Below the pieces are notes generated by a model. The model worked only from the letters and a program-made list of their open reading frames with translations. It ran no database searches and was not told the origin of the DNA. 63,981 nt of DNA from an uncultured Lachnospiraceae bacterium (GTDB taxonomy: Bacteria > Bacillota > Clostridia > Lachnospirales > Lachnospiraceae): assembly GCA_902781215.1 (NCBI GenBank), contig CACZIO010000007.1, positions 1 through 63,981 on the forward strand, read 5' to 3'. The number at the start of each line of letters is the position of its first letter. Positions within the stretch are counted from its first letter, which is position 1. Position numbers and translations under genes: made by a program. This document shows, in pieces, positions 1-18,378 of this stretch.

Positions 1-297
1 AGATCCAGCGCCGGAAAGCTGGCCGACGGCAGCGGGCGCAGATCAGGCCGCTCAGGCTGCCGCAGGCCGTCTCAGAGCGCCGGGAGAGTCCCTCTGCCAT
101 TATGGCCACAGTCAGGAAGATGAAAGCGGCAGCGGGCGTCTCAGGCAATCGCGGATCCACGCCGGGAAGCTGGAAGGCTTCAGGCGGGACAGAAAGGCCA
201 GGCCACTGCGCGGATCCCTCAGCTGTCGCGGATCCACGCTGCCGGGAAGACGGCCAGCGGCAGCGGGCGCAGATCAGACCGCGCAGACCGTCTATTA
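1..297 (+). repeat. GC-rich mosaic repeat block 1
   Basis: Non-coding mosaic of short modules such as AGATCCAGCGCCGG, GCAGATCAGGCCG, CGGATCCACGCCGGGA and GCTGGAAGGCTTCAGG. Positions 1 to 145 match 4499 to 4643 almost base for base, and 192 to 229 is a perfect 38-bp match to 4461 to 4498. The block stops within a few bases of the stop codon of the minus-strand repressor gene. All modules read in the plus direction, as in the other blocks. Long frames through it are composition artefacts. Confidence 0.85.
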
Positions 298-298
298 T

Positions 299-1012
299 TC
301 ATTTCGACAACATATCAATTGCCTCTTTTTTCCCCTCTGGACTAAGCTGCATAAACAGGGAAACTATTTCCCGCATTTTAGATGAGTAAGACGGTTCATT
401 TACTATCCCCTCAGCAGGCTGATAATGGGGACATTCGTTGGCTTTGGCATATTCGTCACGTTTTGCCCTAACAAAAGAGTGAATATATCTGTCGGTTATA
501 TATTGGATTCCAGCAAACAATTCTATCTCATATTCTACGTATTCATTAAGCGACATATCTATCCCGTCAACTGAACAATACGGGAAGAAATCGTTACTTT
601 TGCTGTCATAATATAATTTTTTGTAAGTCGATAAGATACCGAGAGATTCTAACAATGCAGTTATATGATCATATTGTGCATAAGATTCTTTGTTACGGGG
701 GAGAAAATATTTCTGCACATTATTAAATCTATTTGCATGTTTTGAACTGTGATAATTTGAACTGAAATCATATTCAGTAATAGCACCCTCCCCGCAGATC
801 CATTCACAAGGAACCGAGAACAATTCTCCCAATGTTTGCAAAGTGTCTAATGGAATATGCTGTTTCCCAGATACATAAAGGTAAAGTGTTTTTGTAGATA
901 CAAATAGTGCGTCGGCAATATAAGCATTGGTGTAATTGTATTTGTTTTTTAACAGTGCGTATCTATCGCGACAGATGAAATATTTCGTTTCTTTATTCAT
1001 ATCATTTTTCAT
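299..1012 (-). CDS. Cro/CI-type (XRE) transcriptional regulator, candidate element repressor
   Basis: The 237-residue protein has a helix-turn-helix near residues 16 to 70 (YTNAYIADALFVSTKTLYLYVSGKQ), followed by a longer domain with no family I recognise. The start at 1012 is preferred because GGGGAAA lies just upstream; a longer frame beginning at 1054 lacks a ribosome site. The gene is markedly AT-richer than the repeats and most neighbours, as expected for an imported gene. It is divergent from the excisionase-like gene, the usual arrangement for a lysogeny repressor facing an early operon. Repressor function is inferred from the domain and position; the target operator is not known. Confidence 0.75.
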   Translation of the reverse strand: MKNDMNKETKYFICRDRYALLKNKYNYTNAYIADALFVSTKTLYLYVSGKQHIPLDTLQTLGELFSVPCEWICGEGAITEYDFSSNYHSSKHANRFNNVQKYFLPRNKESYAQYDHITALLESLGILSTYKKLYYDSKSNDFFPYCSVDGIDMSLNEYVEYEIELFAGIQYITDRYIHSFVRAKRDEYAKANECPHYQPAEGIVNEPSYSSKMREIVSLFMQLSPEGKKEAIDMLSK

Positions 1013-1020
1013 GTGTTTTC

Positions 1021-1197
1021 CCCAGTGATAATAAGCAAAATGTAATAACGACAATAAGCAAACAAAACTTTGAAAAGTTAGCTGAAAATTTAGATGTTAA
1101 AACTGAATTAACTAAAACAATGAATGAAATAAAAGAAGATTTGTTTCCTCACGGTGCTATTAAAAAGCATGGTATATCATATTATACCACGTGGTAA
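1021..1197 (+). other. Possible start-less coding remnant upstream of the repressor
   Basis: A plus-strand frame reads ISKQNFEKLAENLDVKTELT and continues with KEDLFPHGAIKKHG to a TAA at 1195 to 1197. It looks protein-like in composition, but it has no ATG before 1120 and no ribosome site, and its 5' end runs into the start of the divergent repressor gene. It may be the 3' fragment of a lost gene, or a chance frame in AT-rich DNA that also holds the repressor promoter. Confidence 0.3.
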
Positions 1198-1281
1198 ATG
1201 AAAACAAATGATAACAAGACACGACACACTATAGAAACAGCAAACATGAAATGACATATTGGAAAACCTACCAGAAAGAAC

Positions 1282-1622
1282 GGCTCAGATCAGACCGCTC
1301 AGACCGCCGCAGGAATCCCGCTGCCGCCGGCAGATCCAGTGCGAGAGCTGGAAGAAGATCCAGACCGCCGGGCGGGCAGATCATGAAGATCAGGCCGCTC
1401 AGGCCGCCGCAGGCCGTCTCAGAGCGCCGGGAGAGACCCTCTGTCATTTACTCACAGATGGGAAGATGAAAGCGGTAGCGGGCGTCTCAGGCCGGGAGCT
1501 GGAAGGCTTCAGGCCGGATCAGGAAGCTGCGGGAGATCCAGCGCCGAAAAGACGGCCAGCGGCAGCGGGCGCAGATCAGGCCTTAGAAACGCTCAGGCCG
1601 GCGCGGATCCACGCCGGGATAC
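1282..1622 (+). repeat. GC-rich mosaic repeat block 2
   Basis: The same module vocabulary as block 1. Positions 1387 to 1491 are a third copy of the long unit, with a diverged AT-rich centre (TCATTTACTCACAGATGGG in place of CCATTATGGCCACAG). The block begins right after a short frame that starts with ATG at 1251 (MTYWKTYQKERL) and runs straight into the repeat, as if a gene had been cut off by it. It ends about 35 bases before the excisionase-like gene. Confidence 0.85.
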
Positions 1623-1656
1623 ATTCAACCATCATATTATTTGAGAAAGGGAAAGC

Positions 1657-1878
1657 ATGAAGGCAAGAACAGATATAGGCACAACCGACATTAGAAACAA
1701 GCGAATGCTCAATATGCATGAAGCTACTTTTTATACCGGAATGGGGTATACCAATTGCAGAAAGTGGCTGGAAGAGATCGGAGCTATCAGGCGTTTCGGA
1801 TCCCGCGTTATGGCCGACCGGCACATTATCGACGCGGCAATCGACGGTATGGGAACCGACGCGACGCAGACCGGCTAA
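1657..1878 (+). CDS. Excisionase-like small DNA-binding protein
   Basis: The 73-residue protein carries one helix-turn-helix/winged-helix region, MLNMHEATFYTGMGY followed by CRKWLEEIGAIRRFG and ending VMADRHIIDAAIDG. This is the layout of small Tn916-Xis/AlpA-type proteins that bind element ends or promoters. GAAAGGGAAAGC precedes the ATG. It is the first plus-strand gene after the divergent repressor and lies in the same element as a tyrosine integrase, which supports an excision or early-regulator role. It could instead be a general HTH protein; the family call is from pattern only. Confidence 0.6.
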   Translation: MKARTDIGTTDIRNKRMLNMHEATFYTGMGYTNCRKWLEEIGAIRRFGSRVMADRHIIDAAIDGMGTDATQTG

Positions 1879-1892
1879 CAAAGGGGGCGCGA

Positions 1893-2378
1893 ATGAAAAG
1901 AAGGACAACAAAGCGGCAGCCTATTGATTTTATGGCTATTCTCCCGCATGGAAAGGAAAACGCGATCAGTGCAGAACACTTGTGTAAAAAGATTGGAGCA
2001 AAGGACACAAGGGCGCTGCGGGATCAGGTTGCTATTTCGCGATTGTCCGGGCAGCTCATTTGTAGCGGCGGGACGGGTTATTATATCCCAGCAACACGGG
2101 CAGAGGTGAAAGATTTTGTGCTCAGGATGGAAGCGCAGGCAAAAAGCACATTTGCTGTGCTGAGGACTGCCCGCAAAGTGCTGAGAGAAGAAAACGAGAT
2201 CCCGGAAATGGAACCAGACAAACCACAGAGGACTGCGGAGATGGAAAGAAAGGCGGAGAGGCCAGACAGGACGCCGGGAGAGGATAAGGCCAGGCCGCCC
2301 GCTGGAAGCATGGAAGCACTGCGGAACAGGCTTCAGAAAGGGGGGATCAGTGGCAAAACGTCGCATGTTCAGCCTTGA
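1893..2378 (+). CDS. Phage-type winged-helix protein of unknown role
   Basis: The 161-residue protein begins MKRRTTKRQPIDFMAILPHG after a strong site (AAGGGGGCGCGA). Residues about 10 to 70 (NAISAEHLCKKIGAKDTRAL, SGGTGYYIPATRAEVKDFV) resemble winged-helix proteins common in early operons of Clostridia phages, where they accompany replication genes. The last 50 residues are charged and low in complexity, and the DNA there uses the same words as the neighbouring repeats (GACGCCGGGAGAGG, CAGGCTTCAGAAAG). Its last 29 bases overlap the next gene, so the two are probably translationally coupled. Function is not known. Confidence 0.6.
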   Translation: MKRRTTKRQPIDFMAILPHGKENAISAEHLCKKIGAKDTRALRDQVAISRLSGQLICSGGTGYYIPATRAEVKDFVLRMEAQAKSTFAVLRTARKVLREENEIPEMEPDKPQRTAEMERKAERPDRTPGEDKARPPAGSMEALRNRLQKGGISGKTSHVQP

Positions 2379-3129
2379 TGTGGTTGATACTGACAATTTT
2401 CTGGACATGCCGCTGTCAGCTCAGGCGCTTTATTTTCACATGGGAATGCGCGCAGATGATGACGGCTTTGTAGCAAGTCCCTTGCGCATACAAAAAATCA
2501 CGGGAGCTTCCAACGATGATTTGAAGCTATTAATTGCAAAGGGGTATGTTATCCCTTTTGAGTCTGGAATTGTGGTTATCACCCATTGGAAACAGCAGAA
2601 TAGTGTAAAAGCCGACCGGTATACACCGACGGTTCACATAGAAGAACGGAATATGTTAAACGTCGATGATTCGCAGGCTTATAGGATGGAACCAAAATGG
2701 AACCAAATTGGAACCACTGCGGAACCACAGTATAGGTTAGTAGAGGATAGGTCAGTAAAGTATAGGACAGTAGAGGAAAGTGATAAATACTGCGCAGAAC
2801 CGCAGCGCGCCTCTGCGCCGGATCCAGTCTCACAGGACATTGATTTTGCAGAGGTTGAACCACTGATTTTAAATGACGGCTCAGAGTGGAGACCGACAAA
2901 AAGAGACGTTGAAGAGTGGGAAAGACTTTATAGCGGTGTTGATGTGATTAGAGAGCTGCTCAGAATGAGACAATGGACGCTCAGCAATCCCGGAAAAAGG
3001 AAGACACGACGCGGGGCAAGAAGGTTTTGCACAAATTGGCTGGACATAGAACAGAACAGGGCGCGCCCGGCGTATTCTCCCGGCAGTGATAAATATACCG
3101 GGAGAATTAATGCAGTGGATAATTGGTGA
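2350..3129 (+). CDS. Phage replisome organizer / DnaD-like replication initiator
   Basis: The 259-residue protein starts with GTG after AAAGGGGGATCA. The N-terminus (MAKRRMFSLDVVDTDNFLDM, AQALYFHMGMRADDDGFV, LIAKGYVIPFESG) is the conserved start of replisome-organizer proteins of low-GC Gram-positive phages, which bind the phage origin and recruit the helicase loader. The middle (residues 105 to 160) is a low-complexity linker. The C-terminal segment (EWERLYSGVDVIRELLRMRQW) resembles a short DnaD-type domain. It is followed after 12 bases by the helicase loader gene, the expected order of a phage replication module. The origin may lie inside this gene, as in related phages, but I could not pick out iterons. 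Confidence 0.75.
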   Translation: MAKRRMFSLDVVDTDNFLDMPLSAQALYFHMGMRADDDGFVASPLRIQKITGASNDDLKLLIAKGYVIPFESGIVVITHWKQQNSVKADRYTPTVHIEERNMLNVDDSQAYRMEPKWNQIGTTAEPQYRLVEDRSVKYRTVEESDKYCAEPQRASAPDPVSQDIDFAEVEPLILNDGSEWRPTKRDVEEWERLYSGVDVIRELLRMRQWTLSNPGKRKTRRGARRFCTNWLDIEQNRARPAYSPGSDKYTGRINAVDNW

Positions 3130-3141
3130 GGCGGCCAGAAT

Positions 3142-3768
3142 ATGACACGTGATGAATTCAGACTCATTGCAAAAGCGGTTATAGCAGCATACCCGCGTGA
3201 TAATACGATGCCGAATGAATATACGTTCGGGCTGTGGTTCTCTCAGCTGTCAGATCTGGAATATGTCGATTGCAGGCGGGCAGTCCAAGCATGGATCAAT
3301 GAAAGCCGCTGGCCGCCGACAATTGCAGATATTCGCCAAAAAGTCCATGATTTGACCGCGCCGCCGGACAGGGGCGCGGCGGCTCAGTGGGGGGATCTTG
3401 TCAATTCTCTGAGGAAGGCTTTTAGTCCGGACGCGTTAGAGACGTGGGAAAACTTGCCAGAAACCACGCGGCAGATAGTCGGATCTTTTTCAGAGTTTCG
3501 CAATTGGTCAAACATACCCATTGATACGCTGGAAAGCGTGAATCGTTCACTTTTCATTAAGCGGTTAGAGACTATGCAGCAGGAAAATAGACGGCGGGCT
3601 GCGATCCCGGAACAGCTCAGAACGCCGAAAGCACCCATTGAGACCGTCCGGCAACTGAGAATTGAGGAAGGCAAGAAGAACAAAGAGGCCAGCGCCCAGC
3701 CGCCGGCTAAGAAGCTGGAAGAAATGAAAAAACGGCTGAGGAATCCGGGATCAGTAGGAAAGGCATAA
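3142..3768 (+). CDS. Helicase loader/inhibitor (G39P-like)
   Basis: The 208-residue protein begins MTRDEFRLIAKAVIAAYPRD and holds the ESRWPPTIADIRQ motif typical of phage loader/inhibitor proteins such as SPP1 G39P, which deliver the replicative helicase to the organizer-bound origin. It directly follows the replisome organizer, spaced by GAGGCGGCCAGAAT, which serves as ribosome site. The C-terminal 50 residues are charged, and their DNA begins to resemble the adjoining repeat block (CCGCCGGCTAAGAAGCTGGAAG). No helicase gene follows in the window, so the element probably loads the host DnaB/DnaC-type helicase; that is inference. Confidence 0.65.
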   Translation: MTRDEFRLIAKAVIAAYPRDNTMPNEYTFGLWFSQLSDLEYVDCRRAVQAWINESRWPPTIADIRQKVHDLTAPPDRGAAAQWGDLVNSLRKAFSPDALETWENLPETTRQIVGSFSEFRNWSNIPIDTLESVNRSLFIKRLETMQQENRRRAAIPEQLRTPKAPIETVRQLRIEEGKKNKEASAQPPAKKLEEMKKRLRNPGSVGKA

Positions 3769-3771
3769 CAG

Positions 3772-3995
3772 AGGCCGCAGATCCAGCGCTGAAAAGGTCG
3801 CCAGTGGCAGAGGGCGTCTCAGACAGGCTCAGGCCGTTGCGAGAATCCCTCTGCCGTCGCGGATCCTCTGTGAGAGATCCAGCGCCGGGCGCGGGAAGGA
3901 CACAGGCCGGATCAAGAAGCGCAGTCTACTGCGAGAGTCCCTCAGTTGTCACAGATCCACGCTGCCGGAAAGCTGGCCGACGGCAGCGGGCGGCA
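3772..3995 (+). repeat. GC-rich mosaic repeat block 3
   Basis: About 220 bases of the same modules (GCAGATCCAGCGC, GAGAATCCCTCTGCCGTC, GCGGATCCTCTGTGAGAG, AAGCTGGCCGACGGCAGCG) begin three bases after the helicase loader stop codon and end shortly before the zinc-ribbon gene. The last part repeats the start of the long unit seen at position 1. Confidence 0.8.
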
Positions 3996-4048
3996 CACAA
4001 TACGAGAAATCAGTCATGCAGGCAATAAGTGCAGGATAGAGAAAGGAC

Positions 4049-4303
4049 ATGCACAATATGGATGATGAAAAAATATCTTATTTCTGCCCGGTATGTAAAA
4101 GCGACAAACATACAACATTGTCATTTGTGGCAGGAATGCTATCCACAGGGGGATTCATACAAACAGTTATACATTGCGAAAAGTGCGGGAGAGAACGGCG
4201 CAGCGATAGTATAGCGACAGATCTGTTGAATATGTCGGTATATGCGGAATGTGATTTATTAGAACGCTCAATCAAAGAGGCGGCCAGCAGATGGGAAGAA
4301 TAA
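4049..4303 (+). CDS. Small zinc-ribbon protein
   Basis: The 84-residue protein has paired CPVC and CEKCG motifs at about residues 13 to 50, the signature of a zinc ribbon, followed by a short helical tail (LLNMSVYAECDLLERSIKEA). AGAAAGGAC precedes the ATG; a second in-frame ATG three codons on is also possible. Zinc-ribbon proteins of this size occur in many phage early regions and may bind nucleic acid, but no specific role can be given. The stop codon is followed within ten bases by repeat block 4. Confidence 0.6.
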   Translation: MHNMDDEKISYFCPVCKSDKHTTLSFVAGMLSTGGFIQTVIHCEKCGRERRSDSIATDLLNMSVYAECDLLERSIKEAASRWEE

Positions 4304-4311
4304 CCACAAAA

Positions 4312-4800
4312 CCAGATCAGGCCAGCGGCAGAGGGCGCAGATCAGGCCGGTCAGGCTGCCGGGAGAATCCCGCTGCCGTCACAGATCCACAGCGTCAAGC
4401 TGGAAGGCTTCAGGCCGTCGCGGATCCACGCCGGGAGCTGGAAGTCTTCAGACCGGATCAGAAAGGCCAGGCCACTGCGCGGATCCCTCAGCTGTCGCAG
4501 ATCCAGCGCCGGAAAGACGGCCAGCGGCAGCGGGCGCAGATCAGGCCACTCAGGCCGCCGCAGGCCGCCTCAGAGCGCCGGGAGAGTCCATCTGCCATTA
4601 TGGCTACAGTCAGGAAGCTGAAAGCGGCAGAGGGCGTCTCAGGCCGTCGCAGGAATCACGTTGCCGCCGGCAGATCCAGCGCCGGGAGCTGGAAGAAGAT
4701 CCAGACTGCCGCGCGGTCAGATCAGGAAGGTCAGGCCGGATCAGGAAGCTGTGGAAGATCCAGCGCCGGGAGAATGGCCAGCGGCAGAGGGCGTCTCAGA
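4312..4800 (+). repeat. GC-rich mosaic repeat block 4
   Basis: Nearly 490 bases of modules. Positions 4499 to 4643 are a 145-bp copy of the long unit found at 1 to 145, and 4461 to 4498 is the 38-bp perfect match to 192 to 229. GATC is very frequent, roughly a dozen sites against about two expected by chance. A frame stays open through the whole block, but the peptide is a run of Arg, Ala, Gly and Pro with no domain and is not taken as a gene. Confidence 0.85.
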
Positions 4801-5256
4801 TAGGCAAAAGCGTGGAGAAAAGAGGGAGTAAAGGTGTAGTAAGACTATAAAAGACGCGAGAAAGAGGCCGGAAACGGTTCAAGAACCGGTAAAATAGGGA
4901 AGTCAATTTGTTATGCGTTCTATAACATATAGAACAAAGCGCTCCCCAATTTATCCATTGTACCCGCACGCGGACAATGAAACGAATCCCCCCGCGTTGA
5001 AAAAGTCGAAAATTTTCTGCCATATATCGACCGGCGGCCAAACTGTCCGAGCGAGTTTTCTGATTTTACACGCGCGCGCGTGGGAAAAGACAGATTTAAC
5101 ACATTTAATACGTTAGATGGGTTAACGTCGCCGTCATACTCCCCCCATGCTCAGGAATTGAAAAATGGAAACCGCCTATCAAACAGGCATTCGCTTTTTT
5201 GTATTATTAACATTTCATGGATGAAGGACACAGGGCGCGTCAGGGGTTGAAACCAA
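4801..5256. promoter_or_regulatory. Non-repeat control region with palindromes
   Basis: This is the largest repeat-free gap of the element. It holds CGGTTC-AA-GAACCG at 4875 to 4888, GTTCTATA-ACA-TATAGAAC at 4917 to 4935, the 14-bp palindrome CACGCGCGCGCGTG at 5069 to 5082, and ACGTTA-N7-TAACGT near 5110 to 5128. The first two share GTTC/GAAC half-sites and look like operators. The region lies between the replication-type genes and the sigma factor, so it could control sigma expression or act in replication or transfer. No convincing gene is present; short frames on both strands lack ribosome sites. Confidence 0.45.
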
Positions 5257-6261
5257 ATGACCAATGAAGACATTGTTTTGGAGATCCAGAACGGGCGCGA
5301 CAGTGAAGGGCAGTTGTTGTACGACTTGTGGAAACGGAACAAAGGATTGATATATAAAGCGGTCAAGAGATATGAAGGGAGAATGGAGATTGATGATTTA
5401 ATGCAGGAATCATATTTTGCTGTCGTGAAGGCCGCAGAAAGCTACGATCCAGAACAGGGGCAGACATTCGCAGGCTATTTATTTACGCATGTACGTTCAC
5501 ATGTGGGGCGATATGTTGCGAATATGTCCGGGACTGTCCGGCTGCCGCAGAATGTCCAATTTCTTGTTTGGAGATATAACCGGGCACAGGCGGCTTATTT
5601 CAGCGAATACGGAGAGAATATGCCGGATGTTGTGGCCATGCGGGAGCTGAGGATCAGTAAAAAGCAATTAAAGAATCTGAAAAGTGTTTTGGAAGCGGCC
5701 AAAACTCCCAAAAGCATTGAAACCACGATCAGAGAGGAAGAAGGCGCGGAAACATTGAGGGAGCTGCTGCCAGATGGTAAAGACACAAGCGGGGAAGTCA
5801 TTTCTAAGATCTTCAGGATGGAGCGGGCGCAGGTAGTCCGGGAAGCTCTGGAAGACTTGCCAGAAAAGTATGCAGAGGTTTTGAAACTGAGGCACTATCA
5901 CGGGAAGGCGTGGGATGATATCTGCCGGGAATTGAATGTTTCTATTGGTGTGGCCAGACAGAGAGAGGCACAGGGGCGGTTTTATCTCAGGCGCACGCTG
6001 CGCAAAAAACTGGAATCATTCGATGATGAATCCGCGACATTCAGCAGAGGAACCGCGAGAACGGGCGCGGGAGCGTTCAGAATCACAGGAACAAGCGCAA
6101 CAGAGCGGGCAGCGCTATGCGAGATAGAGCAGGCCGCCGGGAGAGTCCCGCTGCCGTCGGCAGATCCAGCGCCGGGAGCTGGAAGGCTTCAGGCCGGATC
6201 AGGCCGGCGGGCAGGCTCAGGCCGCCGCAGGAATCCCGCTGCCGCTGCGGATCCTCTTTGA
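5257..6261 (+). CDS. Sigma-70-family RNA polymerase sigma factor with repeat-derived tail
   Basis: The 334-residue product has sigma region 2 at about residues 25 to 95 (KRYEGRMEIDDLMQESYFAV, FAGYLFTHVRSHVGRYV) and region 4 at about 190 to 256 (ALEDLPEKYAEVLKLRHYHG, WDDICRELNVSIGVARQRE). Such element-borne factors usually switch on later element genes. After residue 258 the reading frame becomes Gly/Ala/Arg/Pro-rich, and from about residue 290 it is encoded by repeat block 5. The alternate frame over 6040 to 6127 reads AEEPRERARERSESQEQAQQ and stops at TAG just before the repeat. That looks like the more natural C-terminus, so a frameshift near 6020 to 6045 is possible. Confidence 0.8.
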   Translation: MTNEDIVLEIQNGRDSEGQLLYDLWKRNKGLIYKAVKRYEGRMEIDDLMQESYFAVVKAAESYDPEQGQTFAGYLFTHVRSHVGRYVANMSGTVRLPQNVQFLVWRYNRAQAAYFSEYGENMPDVVAMRELRISKKQLKNLKSVLEAAKTPKSIETTIREEEGAETLRELLPDGKDTSGEVISKIFRMERAQVVREALEDLPEKYAEVLKLRHYHGKAWDDICRELNVSIGVARQREAQGRFYLRRTLRKKLESFDDESATFSRGTARTGAGAFRITGTSATERAALCEIEQAAGRVPLPSADPAPGAGRLQAGSGRRAGSGRRRNPAAAADPL

Positions 6262-6668
6262 GAGATCCAGCGCCGGGATCTGGAAGGCCACAGGCCGGAT
6301 CAGGTAGGCGGACAGTCTCAGGCTGTCGCGGGAGTCCCTCTGCCGCTGCGGATCCTCTGTGAGATCCACGCCGGGAGCTGGAAGGCTTTAGGCCGGATCA
6401 GGTCGGTCAGGACACGCCGGCGGACAGTCTCAGGCCGTTGCGGGAATCCCGCTGCCGCTGTGGATCCTCTGTGGAGATCCCGGCGCAGGCCGCTGGAAGA
6501 CTTCAGGCGGATCAGGAAGCAGAGACGCTCAGGCCGCCGCAGATCCCGCCGGGAAGTTGGAAGGCTTTAGGCCGGATCAGGCCAGCGCAGGCCACTGCGA
6601 GAGTCCCGCTGCCGCCGGCAGATCCCGCCGGGAGCTGGAAGAAGATCCAGACCGCCGGCGGGCACAGA
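6128..6668 (+). repeat. GC-rich mosaic repeat block 5
   Basis: Some 540 bases of modules, dominated by GCGGGAATCCCGCTGCCGC, TGCGGATCCTCTGTGAGATC and GCTGGAAGGCTTTAGGCCGG. It overlaps the 3' end of the sigma-factor frame. GCGGGAATCCCGC is nearly palindromic, so transcripts could form small hairpins at each copy. It contains no copy of the long-unit centre. Confidence 0.85.
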
Positions 6669-6977
6669 TAGAAATAAACGAAAAAACGGCAGAATGTGAA
6701 AAGCCAATACAACGGAAACACGCCGGAAAGAAGCAAAAAATAGGCCTTGAAACTGCGCGAAACAATTATTTCGCGAATAGTTGAATGGTCAATATGCACA
6801 AGACGCTTTTTCAAAATCGTTTCTAAGAGATTATCAGATAAGAAAAGATACAAAAGGATACTACACAGAAATGTATAAAAATGCATGGTATATGCGACTT
6901 TGTGCATTATCACGATGCATTTTTTCACCCTCAGAATATGCGTTTACGATAAACCGACAGGGAAGAAACACCGGCGG
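6669..6977. other. AT-rich island between repeat blocks, no gene recognised
   Basis: About 300 bases of ordinary AT-rich DNA separate repeat blocks 5 and 6. It contains CGCGAAA-N6-TTTCGCG (6756 to 6775) and the 10-bp arms AAAAATGCAT and ATGCATTTTT at 6877 to 6886 and 6915 to 6924. Frames on both strands cross it, but none has a ribosome site or a family I recognise, and each runs into repeat sequence. It may be the leftover of a gene whose ends were replaced by repeats. Confidence 0.4.
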
Positions 6978-7920
6978 CACAGCTCAGGCCAGCTCAGGCC
7001 GCCGGGAGAATCCCGCTGCCGTCGCGGATCCTCTGCGAGAAATCCCGGCGCAGGCCACTGGAAGACTTCAGACGGATCAGAAAGTAGAGACGCTCAGGCC
7101 GCCTCAGTTAGTGCAGGCCGCTGAGGATCCACGCCGGAAAGCTGGAAGGCTTCAGACCAGCTCAGGCCGTCGCAGTGAATCCCGCTGCCGTCGGCAGATC
7201 CACGCCGGGAGCTGGAAGGCTACAGACCGGATCAGGCCAGCGCAGGCCACAGCGGGAGTCCCGCTGCCGCTTTGAATCCATCTGCCGCCGGCAGATTAAG
7301 CCTCAGAGACGCTCAGGCCACTGTGGATCCATGCCGGGAAACTGGAAGGCTTCAGGCCAGCTCAGGCCGGCGGGCAGTCTCAGGCTGCCGGGAGAATCCC
7401 GCTGCCGTCGCGGATCCACTGCGGGAGATCCAGCCGGAAGCTGGAAGACTTCAGACCGGATCAGGAAGCTGCGGGAGATCCAGCGCGCGGGAAGCTGGCC
7501 GACGGCAGCGGGCACAGATCAGGCCGCTCAGGCCGCCGCAGGCCGTCTTAGAGCGCCGCGAGAGTCACTCTGCCATTATTTGCACAGATGAGAAGAAAAA
7601 AGCGGCAGCGGGCGTCTCAGGCTGTCGCTGCCAGATCCACGCCGCCGCGCGGTCAGATCAGGAAGGTCAGGCCGCACAGGATGCTGTGGGGAATCCCGCT
7701 GCCGGGAAATCCCATATTGGAAAGCTGGCAGGCAGTAGAGGGCGCAGATCTGGCCTCAGAGACGCTCAGACAGGCTCAGACAGGCTCAGGTCACTGCGGG
7801 AATCCCGCTGCCGTCGCGGATCCTCTGCGAGAGATCCCGCAGGAATCTGGAAAGCTTCAGGCAGATCAGGCCAGATCAGGCCGGTCAGGCTGCCGCCGGA
7901 CAGGCTCAGGAAGCTGAAAA
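6978..7920 (+). repeat. GC-rich mosaic repeat block 6 (longest)
   Basis: More than 900 bases of the module mosaic, including a fourth long-unit copy at 7476 to 7621 whose centre reads CCATTATTTGCACAGATGAG. It is the largest block and the last before the integrase; none is seen to the right. Open frames of up to about 230 codons cross it and are rejected as composition artefacts. Confidence 0.85.
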
Positions 7921-7981
7921 AGGACACAAAAAAGGCGCGCCGCGTTGGATGATAACAAAGGACAATACGCGACACGCCAAA

Positions 7982-8034
7982 ACCATACTTGCCACACGGC
8001 GCGAATGTGTGGTACAAAGAGTATACCATACTTG
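7982..8034. promoter_or_regulatory. Direct and inverted repeats upstream of the integrase
   Basis: ACCATACTTG occurs at 7982 to 7991 and again at 8025 to 8034. Between them lie the inverted arms CCACAC (7992) and GTGTGG (8007). Their position about 30 bases before the integrase ATG fits a promoter-operator or binding sites for the integrase or excisionase. The role is inference. Confidence 0.35.
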
Positions 8035-8063
8035 TTTTGCGCCGGAAAGGAGAGAAAAGGACA

Positions 8064-9206
8064 ATGAAGGCGCGAACAAAACGACGCTTGCCCATGGGGT
8101 TTACAGAGCGTGAAAACGGCTCTTTGATGTACAGATTCACGGTAAACGGGCGGAGAATAACCGTTTACGGCAGTACCATAAAGGAATGCAGGATCAAAGA
8201 AGCGGAAAAGATTCAGGAAATAGAGGAACAGTCATATAAGCCGGGAAAAGAACAGACTTTTGAGCAATACGCAGACCAATGGCAGGACATGAAGGCCGGC
8301 GCGGTGCTGGAATCGACAATAAGATCGAACCGGGTTATGTTAAATGCAATTATCCGCGCGCCGATCGACGCCGCCGGGAATACGTTCGGCAGTCTGAAAA
8401 TGTCAGACATAGAAGCCCAGAACGTGCGCGCATTGCAGAAAGAGCTTGCAAAGAGTCGGTCAACCAGAACGGTAAATGATTCTATCAGCATGGTCAGGGG
8501 GATTTTCAATGCTGCCATTGCAGAGAGGATTTTGCTGTGGAATCCGGCACAGGGGATCAGAGCGCTGAAAAGGACAGAGGAACGGGCAGCCGACACAATC
8601 CACAGGGCGCTGACAAGACAGGAAACCACTATTTTCTTGAATGCCGCGAAGGAAAGCAATGCATGGAATTATAACCTTTATGTGTTTTTGCTCAATACCG
8701 GGCTGCGGATCGGAGAGGCGGCGGCACTGACAACCGGCGATATTGTCGATGATGAAATAATCGTGAGGCGGACAGTTACCAGATCAGAATGCGGAGCTTA
8801 TAAAATCGGCAGTGATACCAAAACGGCAGCGGGCAGGCGCTCAGTCCCATTGAACGCTGAGGCCAGAAAAGCGCTGGAAGATCAGAAAGCCATTGAACGG
8901 CTTGTCAGGAATGAGAAGGTGACGAATATCAGAACACCGATATTCAGAGCAGAGCGCGGCGGGCTGTTGCACGCGACATTGGTTAACTACAATATCACGA
9001 AACTGTGCAGAGAAACGGGAATCGAAAGATTCACAGTGCACGCATTTAGAGACACTTTTGCCACAAGATGCATTGAATCCGGAATGCATGTGAAGACTTT
9101 ACAGGTAATTATGGGGCACACCGATATAAATATGACACTTGCCCTATATGCTCATTGCATGAAGGAAACGAGACGGGAACAGCTGGAAGCTGTCAATTTC
9201 ACATAA
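8064..9206 (+). CDS. int: Tyrosine recombinase / element integrase
   Basis: The 380-residue enzyme has an N-terminal arm-binding-type domain (residues 1 to about 55), a SAM-like core-binding domain (about 60 to 170) and a catalytic domain with the full set of residues: R215 in TGLRIGEA, K253, H326 and R329 in HAFRD, H352 in MGHTDINMT, and nucleophile Y362 in LYAH. It should catalyse site-specific integration and excision of the element. The ATG at 8064 is chosen because GGAAAGGAGAGAAAAGG precedes it; the frame is open upstream to 7989 without a ribosome site. It is the last gene of the element and points at the presumed right attachment site. Confidence 0.93.
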   Translation: MKARTKRRLPMGFTERENGSLMYRFTVNGRRITVYGSTIKECRIKEAEKIQEIEEQSYKPGKEQTFEQYADQWQDMKAGAVLESTIRSNRVMLNAIIRAPIDAAGNTFGSLKMSDIEAQNVRALQKELAKSRSTRTVNDSISMVRGIFNAAIAERILLWNPAQGIRALKRTEERAADTIHRALTRQETTIFLNAAKESNAWNYNLYVFLLNTGLRIGEAAALTTGDIVDDEIIVRRTVTRSECGAYKIGSDTKTAAGRRSVPLNAEARKALEDQKAIERLVRNEKVTNIRTPIFRAERGGLLHATLVNYNITKLCRETGIERFTVHAFRDTFATRCIESGMHVKTLQVIMGHTDINMTLALYAHCMKETRREQLEAVNFT

Positions 9207-9324
9207 CTTAATTTAGAAAAAATCCATATATATTGCAAAAATGGTGCAAAATTGGAGTATTTGACAAAAGTGTGCAGACGTTGCCGCAAACGTGGGATGA
9301 ATCCTGCTAGCCCAGCGCTGATCG

Positions 9325-9361
9325 ATAACTCCTGTCACAGGCTGACAGGAGTTATTTTTTT
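9325..9361 (+). terminator. Strong intrinsic terminator after the integrase
   Basis: The perfect 13-bp arms ATAACTCCTGTCA and TGACAGGAGTTAT enclose CAGGC and are followed by a T run. It lies 120 bases after the integrase stop and may belong to the chromosomal side of the junction. Confidence 0.85.
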
Positions 9362-9822
9362 GCCCCGGTCACACGGGGCGGAGGAGGACCGGAGCCGGCA
9401 GTTTAAAAGTACGGGAAACCGGGAGGACAGAACCGGTCAGACTCTTCCGGAGGCTTTTAAAAAAGCACCAAACACCAAAATGACAACATTTTAACTTTTT
9501 TACAGACAAATCCGGTAGACATGCGGTTTTTTCGAGTATATAATATTTGAATGCCTAATTATTTTTTCATTCCATAGAGATGTGGCCTGCATGCCAGTAT
9601 TGCGAGAGGCTCTCCCGGAGAAAGCGGACGGTCTGCCCGGTCAAAAGGGAGGTTTTCCTGTTTTTGAACAGTATTTGAAACGCAAACTGGAATGCCTTTG
9701 TTTTGATGAACAGAATCGGAGCGGAGCATGACGCATGCCTATGGTTCTGGACGGATGAGACGCAGTTACAGAAGATGGGCACATACGACCAGAAAGGCTT
9801 GGATGAAAGATTGGAAACAGTA
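9362..9822 (+). other. Spacer and long leader of the amidase gene
   Basis: This 460-base stretch holds the promoter at 9516 to 9544 and then about 270 bases to the preferred start of the amidase gene. The frame of that gene is open back to an ATG at 9703. I see no separate gene; short frames lack ribosome sites. Confidence 0.5.
9516..9544 (+). promoter_or_regulatory. Sigma-A-type promoter for the cell-wall amidase gene
   Basis: TAGACA and TATAAT are separated by exactly 17 bases in an AT-rich stretch, the first good vegetative promoter to the right of the element. Confidence 0.65.
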
Positions 9823-11832
9823 ATGCATACTCTGAGACAATTCCTTTTCGGGTCGGCAGCGTTTGCCGCGGCTCTGATCATTGCGGGAACTGCCCCGGTT
9901 TACGGAGCCGTCGGGCGGGCAGCTGACACAGGGCCTGCCGATGTGAAGCCGACGGAGGAAAAGCCGGCCGATGCAGCGTCCGGAAAATCTTCATTTGATG
10001 AAGCAATCGATTCTCTGTATGAACAGTCGCAGAGCATCACGGACGAGGAGATCCTGGAACGCTCCAGAGGAATCGAATCAGATGATAGCAAACTGTATTC
10101 CGGACTCGGAAAAGAGAAGGGGGCTGCCGCTGCGGCAGCGATGTCCGCTTATGAAGAGTCCAAGGCGGCCTATATGAGTGCCCGGATCAATGGAGATGAC
10201 AAGGATCAGCAGCAGAGCTCCGAAATACAGGAGTTCACGGCAGCGGGGGCAGATGCGGCTGAGAAGGCTCTTCGAGAGTGGAATCTGCAGAGTGAATACG
10301 CGCAGATGCTGATCGGAGAGGGCAGCGCCGTCAGGGAAATGATTCCCAGGTACAAGGTGACGGGCTGCACACTGCAGGACAATCTCCTGACGCTGGATGT
10401 CGAGGAATGGATGACCCAGGGATATGGCGCGCCGGATGAAAGCGGCGATATCAGCGCATCCTCATACAGCTATGATTTCTCTCTCTCATTCAGACGTGCG
10501 GATGAGGATTCCGCCTGGATCCCCTGCGCGATCAACGGGACGGATGTCAATTTTACCTGGCTCCGCGATGAAACGGATCCTGAGAAGCTGACGCCGGAAG
10601 CACCGGAGACGCCCTTTGCGGTGCAGTCTGACGCGGACGCCCACATCGTGTCATATGCCAGGATCGCAGCCGCGGGGCGGGACGCCGAAGCGGCGGACGG
10701 CTCTGACCCGGGCGCGGAAGCAGGAGAAAGGCTTGTCTTTGCCGTAAACGAAGAGGCGGCAGCAGTGCCGGCACAGGCGGATACGGAATATACCCGGATC
10801 CTGAATGCAGGGGAAGAGGCCGGCGCCGACGCGCAGGTGACCGCAGCAGCTGTCCCGGCGTATAGGTACACGGCATCAAAGGCTATTGCCTATGCCGACA
10901 CCTATTGGAAACACTACAACCGGAATTACAGGGAATACAGGGGGGTGGACTGCGCCAATTTTGTATCACAGTGCCTGTATGCCGGTGGAATGCCCAGAAC
11001 GGATGACTGGTATCCGCAGTCTGTGAACTGGATCAACGTCATGGGCCACATCCGCCATTTCAGAGCCTATGGAACCTTCCTGACCGCGCAGAACGCCAAT
11101 GTGCGCGCGGGAAATCCTGTCTATTATGACTGGAACGGCGACGGAACCTACGACCACACGGCAATCTGTGTGGGTACGAACGCAGCCGGCCTGCCGGTTG
11201 TTGACGGTCACACCAGCAATGTCTACCACGCCGCCTGGAGCATGGGATCCAGAGGAAAGCGCGGAACCATTGTTCTGCGGACCTCCTATGCGCCCGCTGC
11301 GCCGGCCGTTCCGAAAAACACATGGAAGACGGTCTCCGGCAAGGTCTATTACCTGGGCGCGGACGGAAAACCTGTCAAGAGCTCCTTCCGCAGGATCAAC
11401 GGCGCCCTTTATTACTTTAACGCCAAGGGCGTGCGGGTGACGGGTTCCTTCAAGGTCGGCGGAAACCGCTATTACGCAAATCCCTCCAACGGCGCTCTTG
11501 TCACCGGCTGGAAAAAACTGAGCGGCAAGTGGTACTACTACCAGCCCTCGAACGGAGCCCGCCTGAAGAAGGGAAAATACAAGATCGGGAGCGCCTGGTA
11601 TATCATCGGCAGCAGCGGCGCCATGAAGACCGGATTTGTCAAGTACGGCGGCAATTATTACTACGCCGATAAGAAGACCGGCGCCCTCGTCTCCGGCTGG
11701 AAGAAGATCAGCGGCAAATGGTACTACTTTGATAAGAAGACGCTGGTCCGGGCAAAGGGATGGAAGACCATTGACGGCAGAAAATGCTACTTTAATTCCA
11801 AGGGTGTCCTGAAAAAAGGAAAGCACGGCTGA
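9823..11832 (+). CDS. Secreted amidase-domain protein with cell-wall-binding repeats
   Basis: From the chosen ATG the 669-residue protein begins with a signal peptide (MHTLRQFLFGSAAFAAALII then AGTAPVYG). A long acidic, low-complexity region follows. An Amidase_6-type domain lies at about residues 346 to 495, with the likely catalytic Cys in VDCANFVSQC and His residues in YDHTAICVG and DGHTSNVYHA. The last 170 residues are aromatic cell-wall-binding repeats (GWKKLSGKWYYY, GWKKISGKWYYF, GWKTIDGRKCYF), as in choline-binding-type modules. It is probably exported and remodels or binds the wall. The start is uncertain: in-frame ATGs at 9703 and 9775 would place 40 or 16 residues ahead of the signal peptide. 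Confidence 0.8.
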   Translation: MHTLRQFLFGSAAFAAALIIAGTAPVYGAVGRAADTGPADVKPTEEKPADAASGKSSFDEAIDSLYEQSQSITDEEILERSRGIESDDSKLYSGLGKEKGAAAAAAMSAYEESKAAYMSARINGDDKDQQQSSEIQEFTAAGADAAEKALREWNLQSEYAQMLIGEGSAVREMIPRYKVTGCTLQDNLLTLDVEEWMTQGYGAPDESGDISASSYSYDFSLSFRRADEDSAWIPCAINGTDVNFTWLRDETDPEKLTPEAPETPFAVQSDADAHIVSYARIAAAGRDAEAADGSDPGAEAGERLVFAVNEEAAAVPAQADTEYTRILNAGEEAGADAQVTAAAVPAYRYTASKAIAYADTYWKHYNRNYREYRGVDCANFVSQCLYAGGMPRTDDWYPQSVNWINVMGHIRHFRAYGTFLTAQNANVRAGNPVYYDWNGDGTYDHTAICVGTNAAGLPVVDGHTSNVYHAAWSMGSRGKRGTIVLRTSYAPAAPAVPKNTWKTVSGKVYYLGADGKPVKSSFRRINGALYYFNAKGVRVTGSFKVGGNRYYANPSNGALVTGWKKLSGKWYYYQPSNGARLKKGKYKIGSAWYIIGSSGAMKTGFVKYGGNYYYADKKTGALVSGWKKISGKWYYFDKKTLVRAKGWKTIDGRKCYFNSKGVLKKGKHG

Positions 11833-11862
11833 CCGGGCTCCCTGCAATGGGATGGTGCATAC

Positions 11863-12681
11863 ATGTATAGTTTTGACAGCAGGATCCGCTACAGTGAGAC
11901 CGATGCGGACGGGCGGTTGACACCGGAAAAACTGATCGATTACTTTCAGGACTGCTCTACCTTTCAGTCAGAGGACAACGGCCTGGGCGTGGAGCGGCTC
12001 CGCAGACACGGACTTGCCTGGATCATCGTATACTGGCGCGTGGAGGTCCTGCGTATGCCGGTCCTCGGTGAGCAGGTCCGGATCGGGACCCTCCCCTATG
12101 CCATGAAAGGATCGATCGGCCTGAGAAACTTCTTTATGGAGACCGCGGGCGGTGAAAGGCTGGCCAATGCCAACTCCGTATGGTCGCTGGTGGATACGTC
12201 CACCATGCATCCGGTCCGGATCCCGGAGGAGATCCTGGCCGGATATCCGCTGGAGGAACGGCTGCAGATGCAGTACGACGCCAGAAAGATCCGGCTCCCG
12301 GATCAGAGCGGAAGGTCGATGGAACCCATCCGCGTGCAGGAGTATCATCTGGATACCAACCGGCATGTCAACAACGGCCAGTATGTAAGGATGGCGGCGG
12401 GATTCCTCCCTCCCCATACGGAGGTCAGCGTACTCAGGATCGAGTACAGACAGCAGGCTCTGCTGGGAGACATCATCCAGCCGGTCGTGTACACACGGTC
12501 AGAAGAGAACACCGGTCTGACAACCGGGCGCGCAGACGCGGCAGCTGTCGGAAATACAGACGGAAGCAACACGCGGCCCATGCCGGCAGAAGACAGCCGC
12601 AGCGGAGCCGCACAGACAGTCTGCATTGCTTTGAATGCAAAGGACGGCAGGCCATATGCCATTTTGGAGGCTATTTTTTGA
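11863..12681 (+). CDS. Acyl-ACP thioesterase (FatA/FatB-like)
   Basis: The 272-residue protein has two hot-dog halves. The first begins with SRIRYSETDADGRLTPEKLI and holds GLAWIIVYWRVEVLRMP. The second contains HLDTNRHVNNGQYVRMA, whose Asp, Asn and His match the catalytic region of bacterial acyl-ACP thioesterases. The enzyme releases free fatty acids from acyl-carrier protein in the cytoplasm. A low-complexity insertion of about 45 residues (TTGRADAAAVGNTDGSNTRP) interrupts the C-terminal half near residue 220 and is unusual for the family. It lies 30 bases after the amidase gene. Confidence 0.8.
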   Translation: MYSFDSRIRYSETDADGRLTPEKLIDYFQDCSTFQSEDNGLGVERLRRHGLAWIIVYWRVEVLRMPVLGEQVRIGTLPYAMKGSIGLRNFFMETAGGERLANANSVWSLVDTSTMHPVRIPEEILAGYPLEERLQMQYDARKIRLPDQSGRSMEPIRVQEYHLDTNRHVNNGQYVRMAAGFLPPHTEVSVLRIEYRQQALLGDIIQPVVYTRSEENTGLTTGRADAAAVGNTDGSNTRPMPAEDSRSGAAQTVCIALNAKDGRPYAILEAIF

Positions 12682-16813: not shown

Positions 16814-17020
16814 ATCCCATCGGAGAAACACTACGTGATTTCTCCTCGGGTTTTTCGCGCTTACGCGCTCAAAAAGGAGGAAATCAACATAAAACACGCC
16901 GATGCGGTGTTTTATGTTGATGGAAGGTCCGCAAGGGACGCGGACCTTCGATGATCCCATCGGAGAAACACTACGTGATTTCTCCTCGGGTTTTTCGTGC
17001 TTACGCACTCAAAAAGGAGG
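16814..17020 (+). promoter_or_regulatory. Structured leader of the SPFH gene with two copies of a terminator-plus-RBS module
   Basis: A 67-bp module at 16814 to 16880 recurs at 16954 to 17020 with 65 identical positions. Each copy holds a terminator-like hairpin (CCC, then GGAGAAACAC with loop TAC, then GTG-A-TTTCTCC, then GGG and TTTTT), a small hairpin, and AAAAAGGAGG. The small hairpin is GCGC-TTAC-GCGC in copy 1 and GTGC-TTAC-GCAC in copy 2, so the two differences form one compensated base pair. Between the copies lie two more perfect hairpins: ATCAACATAAAACAC with its complement (16883 to 16921) and GAAGGTCCGC with its complement (16923 to 16949). This suggests transcription attenuation or translational control. 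Confidence 0.7.
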
Positions 17021-17025
17021 TATAT

Positions 17026-18378
17026 ATGGGTCTTATTTTAGCAGCAGGCGCTTCACTCAGTTCTGTGCTCGGGGATCAGTGGAAGGAATATTTCTACTGC
17101 TCTGAAATGCCTACGGATGTCCTTGTGCGCAAGGGCGAGCATCACACCGGCAAATCCGGCCTCCTGAACAGGGGCGGGAGTGAGAACGTCATCACCAACG
17201 GGTCGACGATCGTGGTCAATGAAGGCCAGTGTATGATCATTGTCGACCAGGGCGCGATCGTGGATATCTGCGCGGAGCCCGGTGCCTACACGTATGATAC
17301 GTCCACCGAGCCCAGCATCTTTTCCGGAAGCCTGGGAGAGGGCATCAAGGAGAGCTTCAAGAAGTTCGCAGCGCGTGTTTCCTACGGCGGTGTGACGGCG
17401 CACGACCAGCGCGTCTATTATTTCAACACCAAGAATATCATCGGCAACAAGTACGGCACGGCCAGCCCGGTTCCCTTCCGGGTCGTGGACAGGAATATCG
17501 GACTGGATCTGGATATCTCCATCCGTTGCTTCGGCGAGTATGTCTACAAACTGACCGACCCGATCCTTTTCTACAAGAACATCTGCGGCAATGTGGACAG
17601 GGATTACACACGCGACAGGATCGACGATCAGCTGAGGTCCGAGCTCCTGACAGCCCTGCAGCCCGCCTTCGCCAGAATCTCTGACCAGGGGATCCGCTAC
17701 AGCTCCCTGCCCGGCCACACGAAGGAGCTCTCCGATGCCCTCAACAAGGAACTGTCCTCCACCTGGGGCCAGGTCTACGGCATCGAGATCGTCACCTGCG
17801 GCGTCAGCAGCGTCAAGGCCTCCGAAGAGGATGAGCAGGCGATCAAGAACCTGCAGCTCGGCCTCGCGGCGGGCGGCAATGCGGCGATCGCGGCCGGCAT
17901 CACCGTCCAGGCAAACGCCCAGGCCATGAAGGATGCGGCCAAGAATGCGGGCGGCGCCATGATGGGATTCGCCGGCATGGGCATGGCCCAGCAGGCCGGC
18001 GGCGTCAACGTCGGACAGCTGATGCAGCAGGCAGCAACACAGCAGCAAGCTGCAGTGTCACAGCAGCAGGCAGCAGCGCAGCAGGCAGCAGCGCCGCAGA
18101 TGCAGGCACCTTCTGCGGCAGCCGGATGGACCTGCCCTTCCTGCGGCCAGACCGGAAATGCCGGCAAGTTCTGCTCCAACTGCGGCACGGCCAAGCCCGC
18201 GGAGCCTGAGGAGTGGACCTGCCCCAACTGCGGCCAGACCGGCAACAAGGGTAAATTCTGCCCCGGCTGCGGAACGGCTAAACCCGCGGCGGACAGCGGT
18301 TCCTGGACCTGCCCGGAATGCGGCCAGACCGACAACACCGGCAAGTTCTGCTCCGGCTGCGGCAAGCCCAGGGCATAA
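17026..18378 (+). CDS. SPFH-domain protein with three C-terminal zinc ribbons
   Basis: The 450-residue protein starts after AAAAAGGAGG. Residues about 1 to 270 form an SPFH/virion-core-like domain (FDVSI-type segments such as GLDLDISIRCFGEYVYKLTD and SSTWGQVYGIEIVTCGVSSV). A Gly/Ala/Gln-rich linker follows, and three tandem zinc ribbons end the protein (WTCPSCGQTGNAGKFCSNCG and two near copies). Proteins of this kind occur beside a TFIIB-type zinc-ribbon membrane protein, as here, and are thought to organise membranes or stress responses; the precise role is unknown. The 5' leader is highly structured, so expression is probably regulated. Confidence 0.8.
   Translation: MGLILAAGASLSSVLGDQWKEYFYCSEMPTDVLVRKGEHHTGKSGLLNRGGSENVITNGSTIVVNEGQCMIIVDQGAIVDICAEPGAYTYDTSTEPSIFSGSLGEGIKESFKKFAARVSYGGVTAHDQRVYYFNTKNIIGNKYGTASPVPFRVVDRNIGLDLDISIRCFGEYVYKLTDPILFYKNICGNVDRDYTRDRIDDQLRSELLTALQPAFARISDQGIRYSSLPGHTKELSDALNKELSSTWGQVYGIEIVTCGVSSVKASEEDEQAIKNLQLGLAAGGNAAIAAGITVQANAQAMKDAAKNAGGAMMGFAGMGMAQQAGGVNVGQLMQQAATQQQAAVSQQQAAAQQAAAPQMQAPSAAAGWTCPSCGQTGNAGKFCSNCGTAKPAEPEEWTCPNCGQTGNKGKFCPGCGTAKPAADSGSWTCPECGQTDNTGKFCSGCGKPRA

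Follow-up and report, generated by a model that had tools for sequence, protein, structure and literature searches.

GC-rich, like-oriented intergenic repeats in a phage-like integrative element of an uncultured Lachnospiraceae bacterium

Gaps between genes in a small integrative element of an uncultured Lachnospiraceae bacterium (assembly GCA_902781215.1) are occupied by blocks of GC-rich repeats, which are described here. The window, that is, the whole stretch of DNA that was analysed, comprises 63,981 nucleotides at the start of contig CACZIO010000007.1 (C7); the left part of the element lies on a second contig, C67. The last 99 bases of C67 (13731-13829) are identical to window positions 1-99, an exact overlap that falls inside the first repeat block. 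Across the two contigs the element spans 10,163 bp and sits at the end of a tRNA-Gln gene (C67:12831-12904). Its right end is marked, downstream of the integrase gene, by an att site at 9299-9319 (plus strand), a 21-bp repeat of the tRNA-Gln end that copies C67:12887-12907. Judged by its sequence, this is a phage-like, integrative element of about 10.2 kb. Its genes are, in order, an orphan gene on C67, a repressor-like gene, a DUF6462-like gene, a phrog_2113 gene, a DnaD-like helicase loader, a second loader-like gene, a gene for a Cys-rich protein, a sigma factor and a tyrosine integrase. The genome amounts to 3.33 Mb in 132 contigs and is 94.7% complete.

Six blocks, 2,932 bp altogether, draw on one common vocabulary, and all are read on the plus strand: b1 at 1-297, b2 at 1282-1622, b3 at 3772-3995, b4 at 4312-4800, b5 at 6128-6668 and b6, the longest, at 6978-7920. 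A preliminary description of the sequence had proposed these positions and the common vocabulary, and both were confirmed by self-comparison and by block-to-block matches, except that 1-297 is only the right part of b1. The true start of this block is at C67:13634, beyond the contig edge; it extends left over C67:13634-13829 and measures 394 bp altogether. Self-comparison of window 1-9400 gave 131 direct and 0 inverted matches, spanning 2,804 bp. When the blocks were compared with one another at E<=1e-4, 356 of 356 rows were plus/plus and none was minus, and 180 rows were left without self and exact reciprocal rows. By comparison, 33 control loci, of which 31 surround related DnaD-like, integrase or sigma genes and two were fetched for a short repeat match, had 0-5 direct self-matches each; two of them, L116 and L163, contain a few long direct repeats, spanning 1,115 and 1,495 bp.

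The blocks had also been called GATC-dense, and they are, with 23.8 GATC per kb against 10.1 and 11.9 per kb in the flanking chromosome and 5.5 per kb in the genes of the element (70 in the blocks vs 23.9 in shuffles). Because the repeat unit itself contains several GATC, this richness is one property of one unit and no independent signal. Outside the blocks, a search at E<=1 gave 44 weak matches, 21 of them plus and 23 minus; the strongest one in the flank has E=0.047. Within the element's own genes the sole matches are two in the integrase (E=0.025 and 0.57). Derivation of the repeat from the element's own genes was considered and rejected, these two faint matches being all that speaks for it. 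Blocks were said to abut gene ends within a few bases; abutment within about 10 bp was found at b1 (repressor stop), b3 (gene end at 3768) and b4 (4303) but not at b2 or b6, and b5 is entered by the sigma factor reading frame for about 44 codons. Just ahead of b1, at approximately C67:13581-13628, a hairpin followed by a T run was noted by eye and looks like a terminator.

The modules of the preliminary description are pieces of one basic unit of 75-92 bp, the A unit. A profile iterated from seven seed copies (model R1) gave 26 matches, all on the plus strand, with the top-scoring example at 7378-7465; the analyses of conservation, CpG and copy identity drew on the 23 matches longer than 50 model positions. 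A longer variant, Y, is present in four copies, at 1-152, near 1387-1492 (partial), at 4499-4650 and at 7477-7628, all plus. Spacing within blocks is irregular, as had been stated, yet structured, with more matches than expected at distances of about 100 and 200 bp. Tandem Repeats Finder reports a 101-bp tandem period in b5 at 6162-6403, where periodicity is clearest. A CRISPR array, which had been discounted before, was rejected, as the blocks hold no near-identical repeats with regular unique spacers.

The earlier statement that all copies read in one direction holds for whole units (26 of 26) but not for a short core. The commonest word in the blocks, CCCGCTGCCG, is present in 13 copies, against 8 copies of its reverse complement, and their contexts differ: the word itself belongs to the basic unit and the reverse complement mainly to the longer variant. 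An alternative core letter (G/T) likewise appears in both orientations, in 3 of the 16 cores that read plus and 4 of the 12 that read minus. The 15-nt A-unit core at 7181-7195 (plus) has its exact reverse complement at three places, 22-36 and 7498-7512, both within Y copies, and 3976-3990; the same 15 nt recur at 6147-6161. Among 400 shuffled pairs of an A and a Y copy, none had an inverted match of 15 nt and one reached 14. Orientation of the core is unbalanced among blocks, b5 having five plus and no minus. Independence of repeat direction from the strand of neighbouring genes, also claimed previously, holds on a single case, there being only one minus-strand gene next to the blocks.

The repeat is intergenic and, on sequence criteria, apparently non-coding. 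Long plus-strand open reading frames (ORFs) traverse several blocks. Whereas b1 to b4 are each open in one frame or more, every plus frame of b5 and b6 is interrupted by stops. The scanned block ORFs had no Pfam or PHROGs match. Plus-strand stops are depleted (23 vs 42.4 in shuffles; 7 vs 21.9 with substitutions relocated). This is no sign of translation, because a column-preserving shuffle (9.6 stops expected, P=0.105) and comparable triplet sets (130 of 2,169 equally depleted) reproduce the depletion. Protein coding was therefore rejected, the lack of stops being accounted for by conserved columns. Decay by CpG deamination was likewise rejected: CpG sites are more variable, but the excess variation includes transversions as well as transitions. 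Two ORFs, at 1259-1660 across b2 and at 4291-4803 across b4, overlap neighbouring genes in a way that looks coupled (ATGA at 1657; an ATG at 4291 that precedes the stop with its end at 4303). Neither matched a protein family, and the arrangement is probably a coincidence arising from the stop-poor unit.

Relatives of the repeat were sought in 1,349 genome searches, in sets that overlap and include the organism's own genome: b6 was run against 99 genomes, b4 against 392 of the order, and model R1 against 62 of the genus, 397 of the family (334 genera) and 398 of the phylum. Neither these searches nor the pattern scans and the comparisons with phages and plasmids yielded a convincing relative; only the best few candidates per genome were scored (4, 2, 76, 11, 11), and weak families could be missed. 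In the own genome, all repeat matches (15 of 15, and 24 of 24 with R1) fall in the blocks on C7 or in the terminal part of C67. Block b6 gave short matches in two genomes (27 and 31 bp), as did b4 (29 and 42 bp). In the genus, R1 had 13 matches in 12 genomes, with E from 5.6e-4 to 0.0092 and a best score of 21 bits vs 75.8 here; when the surroundings were fetched, 11 of the 13 places had no second match nearby. The family sample had no match elsewhere at 1e-4, and the phylum sample had one, at E 7.2e-4. One 18-mer searched against GTDB genome contigs returned 50 scattered single matches, at loci that share at most 33 12-mers with the blocks; two loci derived from the window itself share 865 and 1,056. 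Five exact patterns gave 0 matches in IMG/VR, and blastn of b6, the sole block tried, gave none among phages and plasmids. The preliminary description stood in that its modules matched no family or record searched, that the scanned block ORFs matched no protein family, and that no copy was found in the rest of the host genome. As far as these searches go, the family is confined to one element.

The nearest known kind is the STAR elements of Staphylococcus aureus, which are outlined in PMC3532100 as GC-rich, intergenic direct repeats with recurring spacers whose function and spreading mechanism are unknown; like the present blocks, they are GC-rich intergenic direct repeats in a Firmicute. As described there, STAR elements occupy many chromosomal loci and have locus-specific spacers, whereas the repeats here are in one mobile element and their copies cluster little by locus, with at most a slight within-block excess. 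The STAR 14-bp consensus T(G/A/T)TGTTG(G/T)GGCCC(C/A) matched the window 22 times with up to 3 mismatches (37.8 expected), and none of these matches is in a block. The repeats of halovirus HF2, according to PMC8707807, are 58 or 29 bp long and contain AT-rich motifs; they function as promoters, and related viruses have conserved them. They resemble the present ones as directional repeats in the intergenic gaps of one mobile or viral genome, and differ in that ours are GC-rich, take up hundreds of bp per gap and have no relative that we could find. BIME/REP sequences are reported in PMC2817692 as mosaic intergenic combinations in which the REPs are palindromes in alternating orientation. The both-orientation core bears a faint likeness to these, but whole units here keep one orientation. 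Among the literature records listed, none describes repeats of this sort in a small integrative element. They would be new, as far as searched, in being a direct-repeat family of the intergenic kind confined to one mobile element rather than dispersed over a chromosome.

How copies came to lie in six separate blocks can be approached from their similarity. Collinear multi-unit segments are common to separate blocks: b4 and b6 share 423 aligned columns at 68% identity, b1 and b6 share 269 at 85.5%, and b1 and b4 share 170 at 89%. Of 23 units, 4 find their closest match within their own block (4.1 expected); over pairs that share 35 columns or more, identity is 0.752 within a block, 0.719 between adjacent copies and 0.730 between blocks. 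When the comparison is restricted to longer copies, 5 of 19 have a same-block nearest copy (3.8 expected) and identities are 0.756, 0.736 and 0.739 (within, adjacent, between); for the 17 longest the figures are 4 of 17 (3.4 expected) and 0.778, 0.753 and 0.748. Because there is little clustering by block and multi-unit segments are common to several blocks, local slippage alone is insufficient, and the common segments suggest either that segments were copied from block to block or that one diversified array was later split. The suggestion that the repeat is self-expanding, in the sense of local expansion, is not upheld, since copies resemble those of other blocks nearly as much as those of their own.

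The repressor-like gene bears on how the array and the genes came together. It lies in a cassette at 292-1281 with a GC content of 0.339, against 0.375-0.499 in six other segments, and this cassette is flanked by a 25-bp direct repeat, with copies at 266-290 and 1282-1306 (both plus) that are 23/25 identical and reciprocal best matches. The flanking repeat hints that the array was split at this one place, the cassette lying as if it had been inserted. The earlier proposal that repeats fill pre-existing gaps fits poorly with this junction and better with b5, where the sigma factor frame runs into the repeat.

We tentatively favour a STAR-like intergenic repeat that belongs to one element and spreads by segmental copying in cis, with a possible role as homology linkers between cassettes. 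Array segments would be copied from block to block by homologous recombination or by template switching during replication of the element. Such copying would preserve orientation, and unequal exchange would then trim and shuffle units to give the mosaic. The blocks might further serve as interchangeable homology linkers, so that recombination of two like-oriented repeats would let a cassette in or out; one such event could be recorded by the repressor cassette, given its deviant base composition and its matching 25-bp repeat on each side. Carried to its end, the proposal would make the whole element a set of gene cassettes in a self-made scaffold of like-oriented linkers, a modular platform that swaps the repressor and other modules by ordinary recombination, without an integron attC or cassette integrase. 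This extension we consider distinctly unlikely.

Several results weigh against copying in cis with linker function. Copying alone predicts neither uneven conservation along the unit nor a core of 10-15 bp that is found in both orientations, an exception to the one-way units. Such a core fits a binding site used either way, a pairing element or an old inverted copy. When the end of each block was compared with the start of the following one, the natural order did only weakly better than others (20 of 720 permutations; p=0.097 against random cuts), and the figures were 71 of 720 and 0.155 in a first scoring, for which block ends had been placed by eye. A reciprocal-best flanking repeat is found at just one of five junctions, the next-best places matching at 21 and 22 of 25. 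The sigma factor frame that enters b5 suggests a repeat joined onto a gene, not a gene placed into a repeat. No relatives were found of which some have a block and others lack it, and gain, loss or exchange was accordingly not observed.

The main rival, second to the favoured reading and possible though doubtful in our view, is that the blocks are protein-binding arrays, their units being sites for the element's sigma factor, its repressor or replication proteins, as promoters, operators (stoperators) or a partition or origin array. In its favour, the words CTCAG, GAATCCCGCTGCCG, GATCC, CTGGAAG and CAG are conserved and alternate with variable spacers, and column variance over the 23 copies is 0.0276, above all of 2,000 simulations (mean 0.0066, maximum 0.0114). 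The copies were simulated as independent, however, and shared ancestry inflates the test; the conserved columns may reflect binding sites or shared ancestry, which the simulation cannot separate. The core word and its alternative letter in both orientations would suit sites used either way, but the two orientations are not paired within blocks, as b5 illustrates. The element encodes its own sigma factor, and HF2 offers a precedent for directional intergenic viral repeats as promoters (PMC8707807). Against this, 26 unit matches far exceed the regulatory need of about nine genes, and only one of 17 sigma-70-like sites in window 1-9400 falls in a block (3923-3952, minus), a count that addresses sigma-70-like specificity only.

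Neutral expansion by replication slippage and unequal exchange in intergenic DNA, without any function, is unlikely. The 101-bp tandem period in b5, the excess lags near 100 and 200 bp, the slight within-block excess of identity among the 17 longest copies (0.778 vs 0.748) and the lack of a coding, RNA or family signal are what it would leave behind. Under it, neighbouring copies should be clearly the most alike, which is not observed, and by itself it leaves one vocabulary in six separate gaps unexplained.

A structured RNA or a single-stranded DNA fold, in transcript leaders or tails, in a separate non-coding RNA (ncRNA) or on the replicating strand, is improbable. Blocks fold slightly better than shuffles (z of -1.8 for b5 plus, -1.4 for b5 minus, -1.7 for b6 plus with 20 shuffles and -2.7 for b4 plus), and complementarity between the core words of A and Y units extends to as much as 15 nt. 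However, b5, the sole block folded on both strands, folds about equally on the other strand, and Rfam gave 0 matches to E=1 in window 1-12000. RNAalifold on 17 copies of a single unit type predicted 6 pairs, none with a compensatory change; the ncRNA role put forward earlier finds no backing in this covariation test.

A miniature inverted-repeat transposable element (MITE) or BOX-like element, mobilised by a transposase from elsewhere, is slightly more improbable still. BOX of Streptococcus, as presented in PMC3049150, has terminal inverted repeats, target duplications, a chromosome-wide distribution and a predicted RNA fold; the likeness here lies in the modular, composite make-up with variable module number and in the intergenic placement. 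The blocks differ in having no shared ends, no sequence common to all block ends having been found, and no copy in the rest of the host genome (94.7% complete). Terminal inverted repeats framing the blocks are absent, the inverted core of 10-15 bp sitting inside units, and the units keep a single orientation. A target duplication is present at best at one of five junctions, as the 25-bp direct repeat around the repressor cassette.

An artefact of assembly, in a fragmented and probably metagenome-assembled genome, is very improbable. The contigs do break inside b1 with an exact 99-bp overlap, and the genome is in 132 pieces, but the blocks differ by about 10-36% over aligned stretches, their flanks are unique and both ends of the element match one tRNA-Gln att site. 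The overlap probably marks a branch of the assembly graph, and b1 could, on this evidence, vary in the sampled population. Least probable of all is packaging filler, repeat DNA that raises a phage satellite to packageable length, for although a 10,163-bp element that encodes an integrase, regulators and replication proteins, and in which none of the scanned ORFs was structural, might call for it, no packaging gene was recognised among those ORFs.

If the blocks are homology linkers, they would explain how modules are exchanged in small phage-like elements with gene orientation kept; if they are binding arrays, the array of this element is unusually large. With the whole family, as far as searched, in one 10-kb mobile element, and blocks that draw on a single pool of copies, its birth and spread could be traced in a small system.

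The remaining features of the element are as follows. The orphan gene, on C67 to the left of the repressor-like gene, encodes 114 aa. The helix-turn-helix (HTH) repressor-like gene (299-1054, minus), in the AT-rich cassette, has a family match below the cut-off. Unlike the integrase, it has no relative at E<=1e-10 in any of the genus's 61 remaining genomes, a difference that speaks for the cassette reading. All other genes in the window part are on the plus strand. A small gene at 1657-1878 has a weak DUF6462 match (E=2.8e-4, below the curated cut-off). The phrog_2113 gene, from a family of unknown function, lies at 1893-2378 with a start picked by eye (scanned as 1755-2378). The DnaD-like helicase loader (2350-3129) matches phrog_8489 at E=5.9e-60; its gene contains two short tandem repeats at 2686-2777, of 11 bp x 2.8 and 15 bp x 3.1. 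Six DnaD-like relatives with 42-50% identity lie at loci without such blocks. The second helicase-loader-like gene (3142-3768) matches phrog_9804 and phrog_2289 and, weakly, Inhibitor_G39P. An ORF at 4049-4303 encodes an 84-aa Cys-rich protein to which the profile scan assigned no family. The RNA polymerase sigma factor gene is at 5257-6261, its last 44 or so codons inside b5. The tyrosine integrase gene (8064-9206), identified by family matches, has relatives in 10 genomes of the genus at E<=1e-40; neither the integrase nor the second loader had closer relatives among viral_contigs. No structural, packaging, transposase or reverse-transcriptase family was recognised among the nine gene ORFs with Pfam and PHROGs, which agrees with the earlier remark that no reverse transcriptase or transposase is present.

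Phage satellites such as phage-inducible chromosomal islands (PICI) and PICI-like islands are small, tRNA-integrated elements with an integrase, a divergent repressor-like gene and replication genes. The present element resembles them in its integrase and att site at a tRNA gene, its divergent repressor-like gene, its replication genes and the lack of recognised capsid genes. It differs in that no small terminase or capsid-redirecting gene is found among the nine ORFs, and it is not classed as a PICI. To our knowledge, phage satellites do not carry comparable blocks of intergenic repeats.

In the flanking chromosome, direct repeats were noted at 16814-17020 and 18127-18362 (97% over 67 bp; 77% over 149 bp), with no block match to them among the matches listed. 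A large ORF at 9703-11832 adjoins the right att site and carries C-terminal aromatic repeats of the GWKKLSGKWYYY type, which we take to resemble cell-wall-binding repeats.

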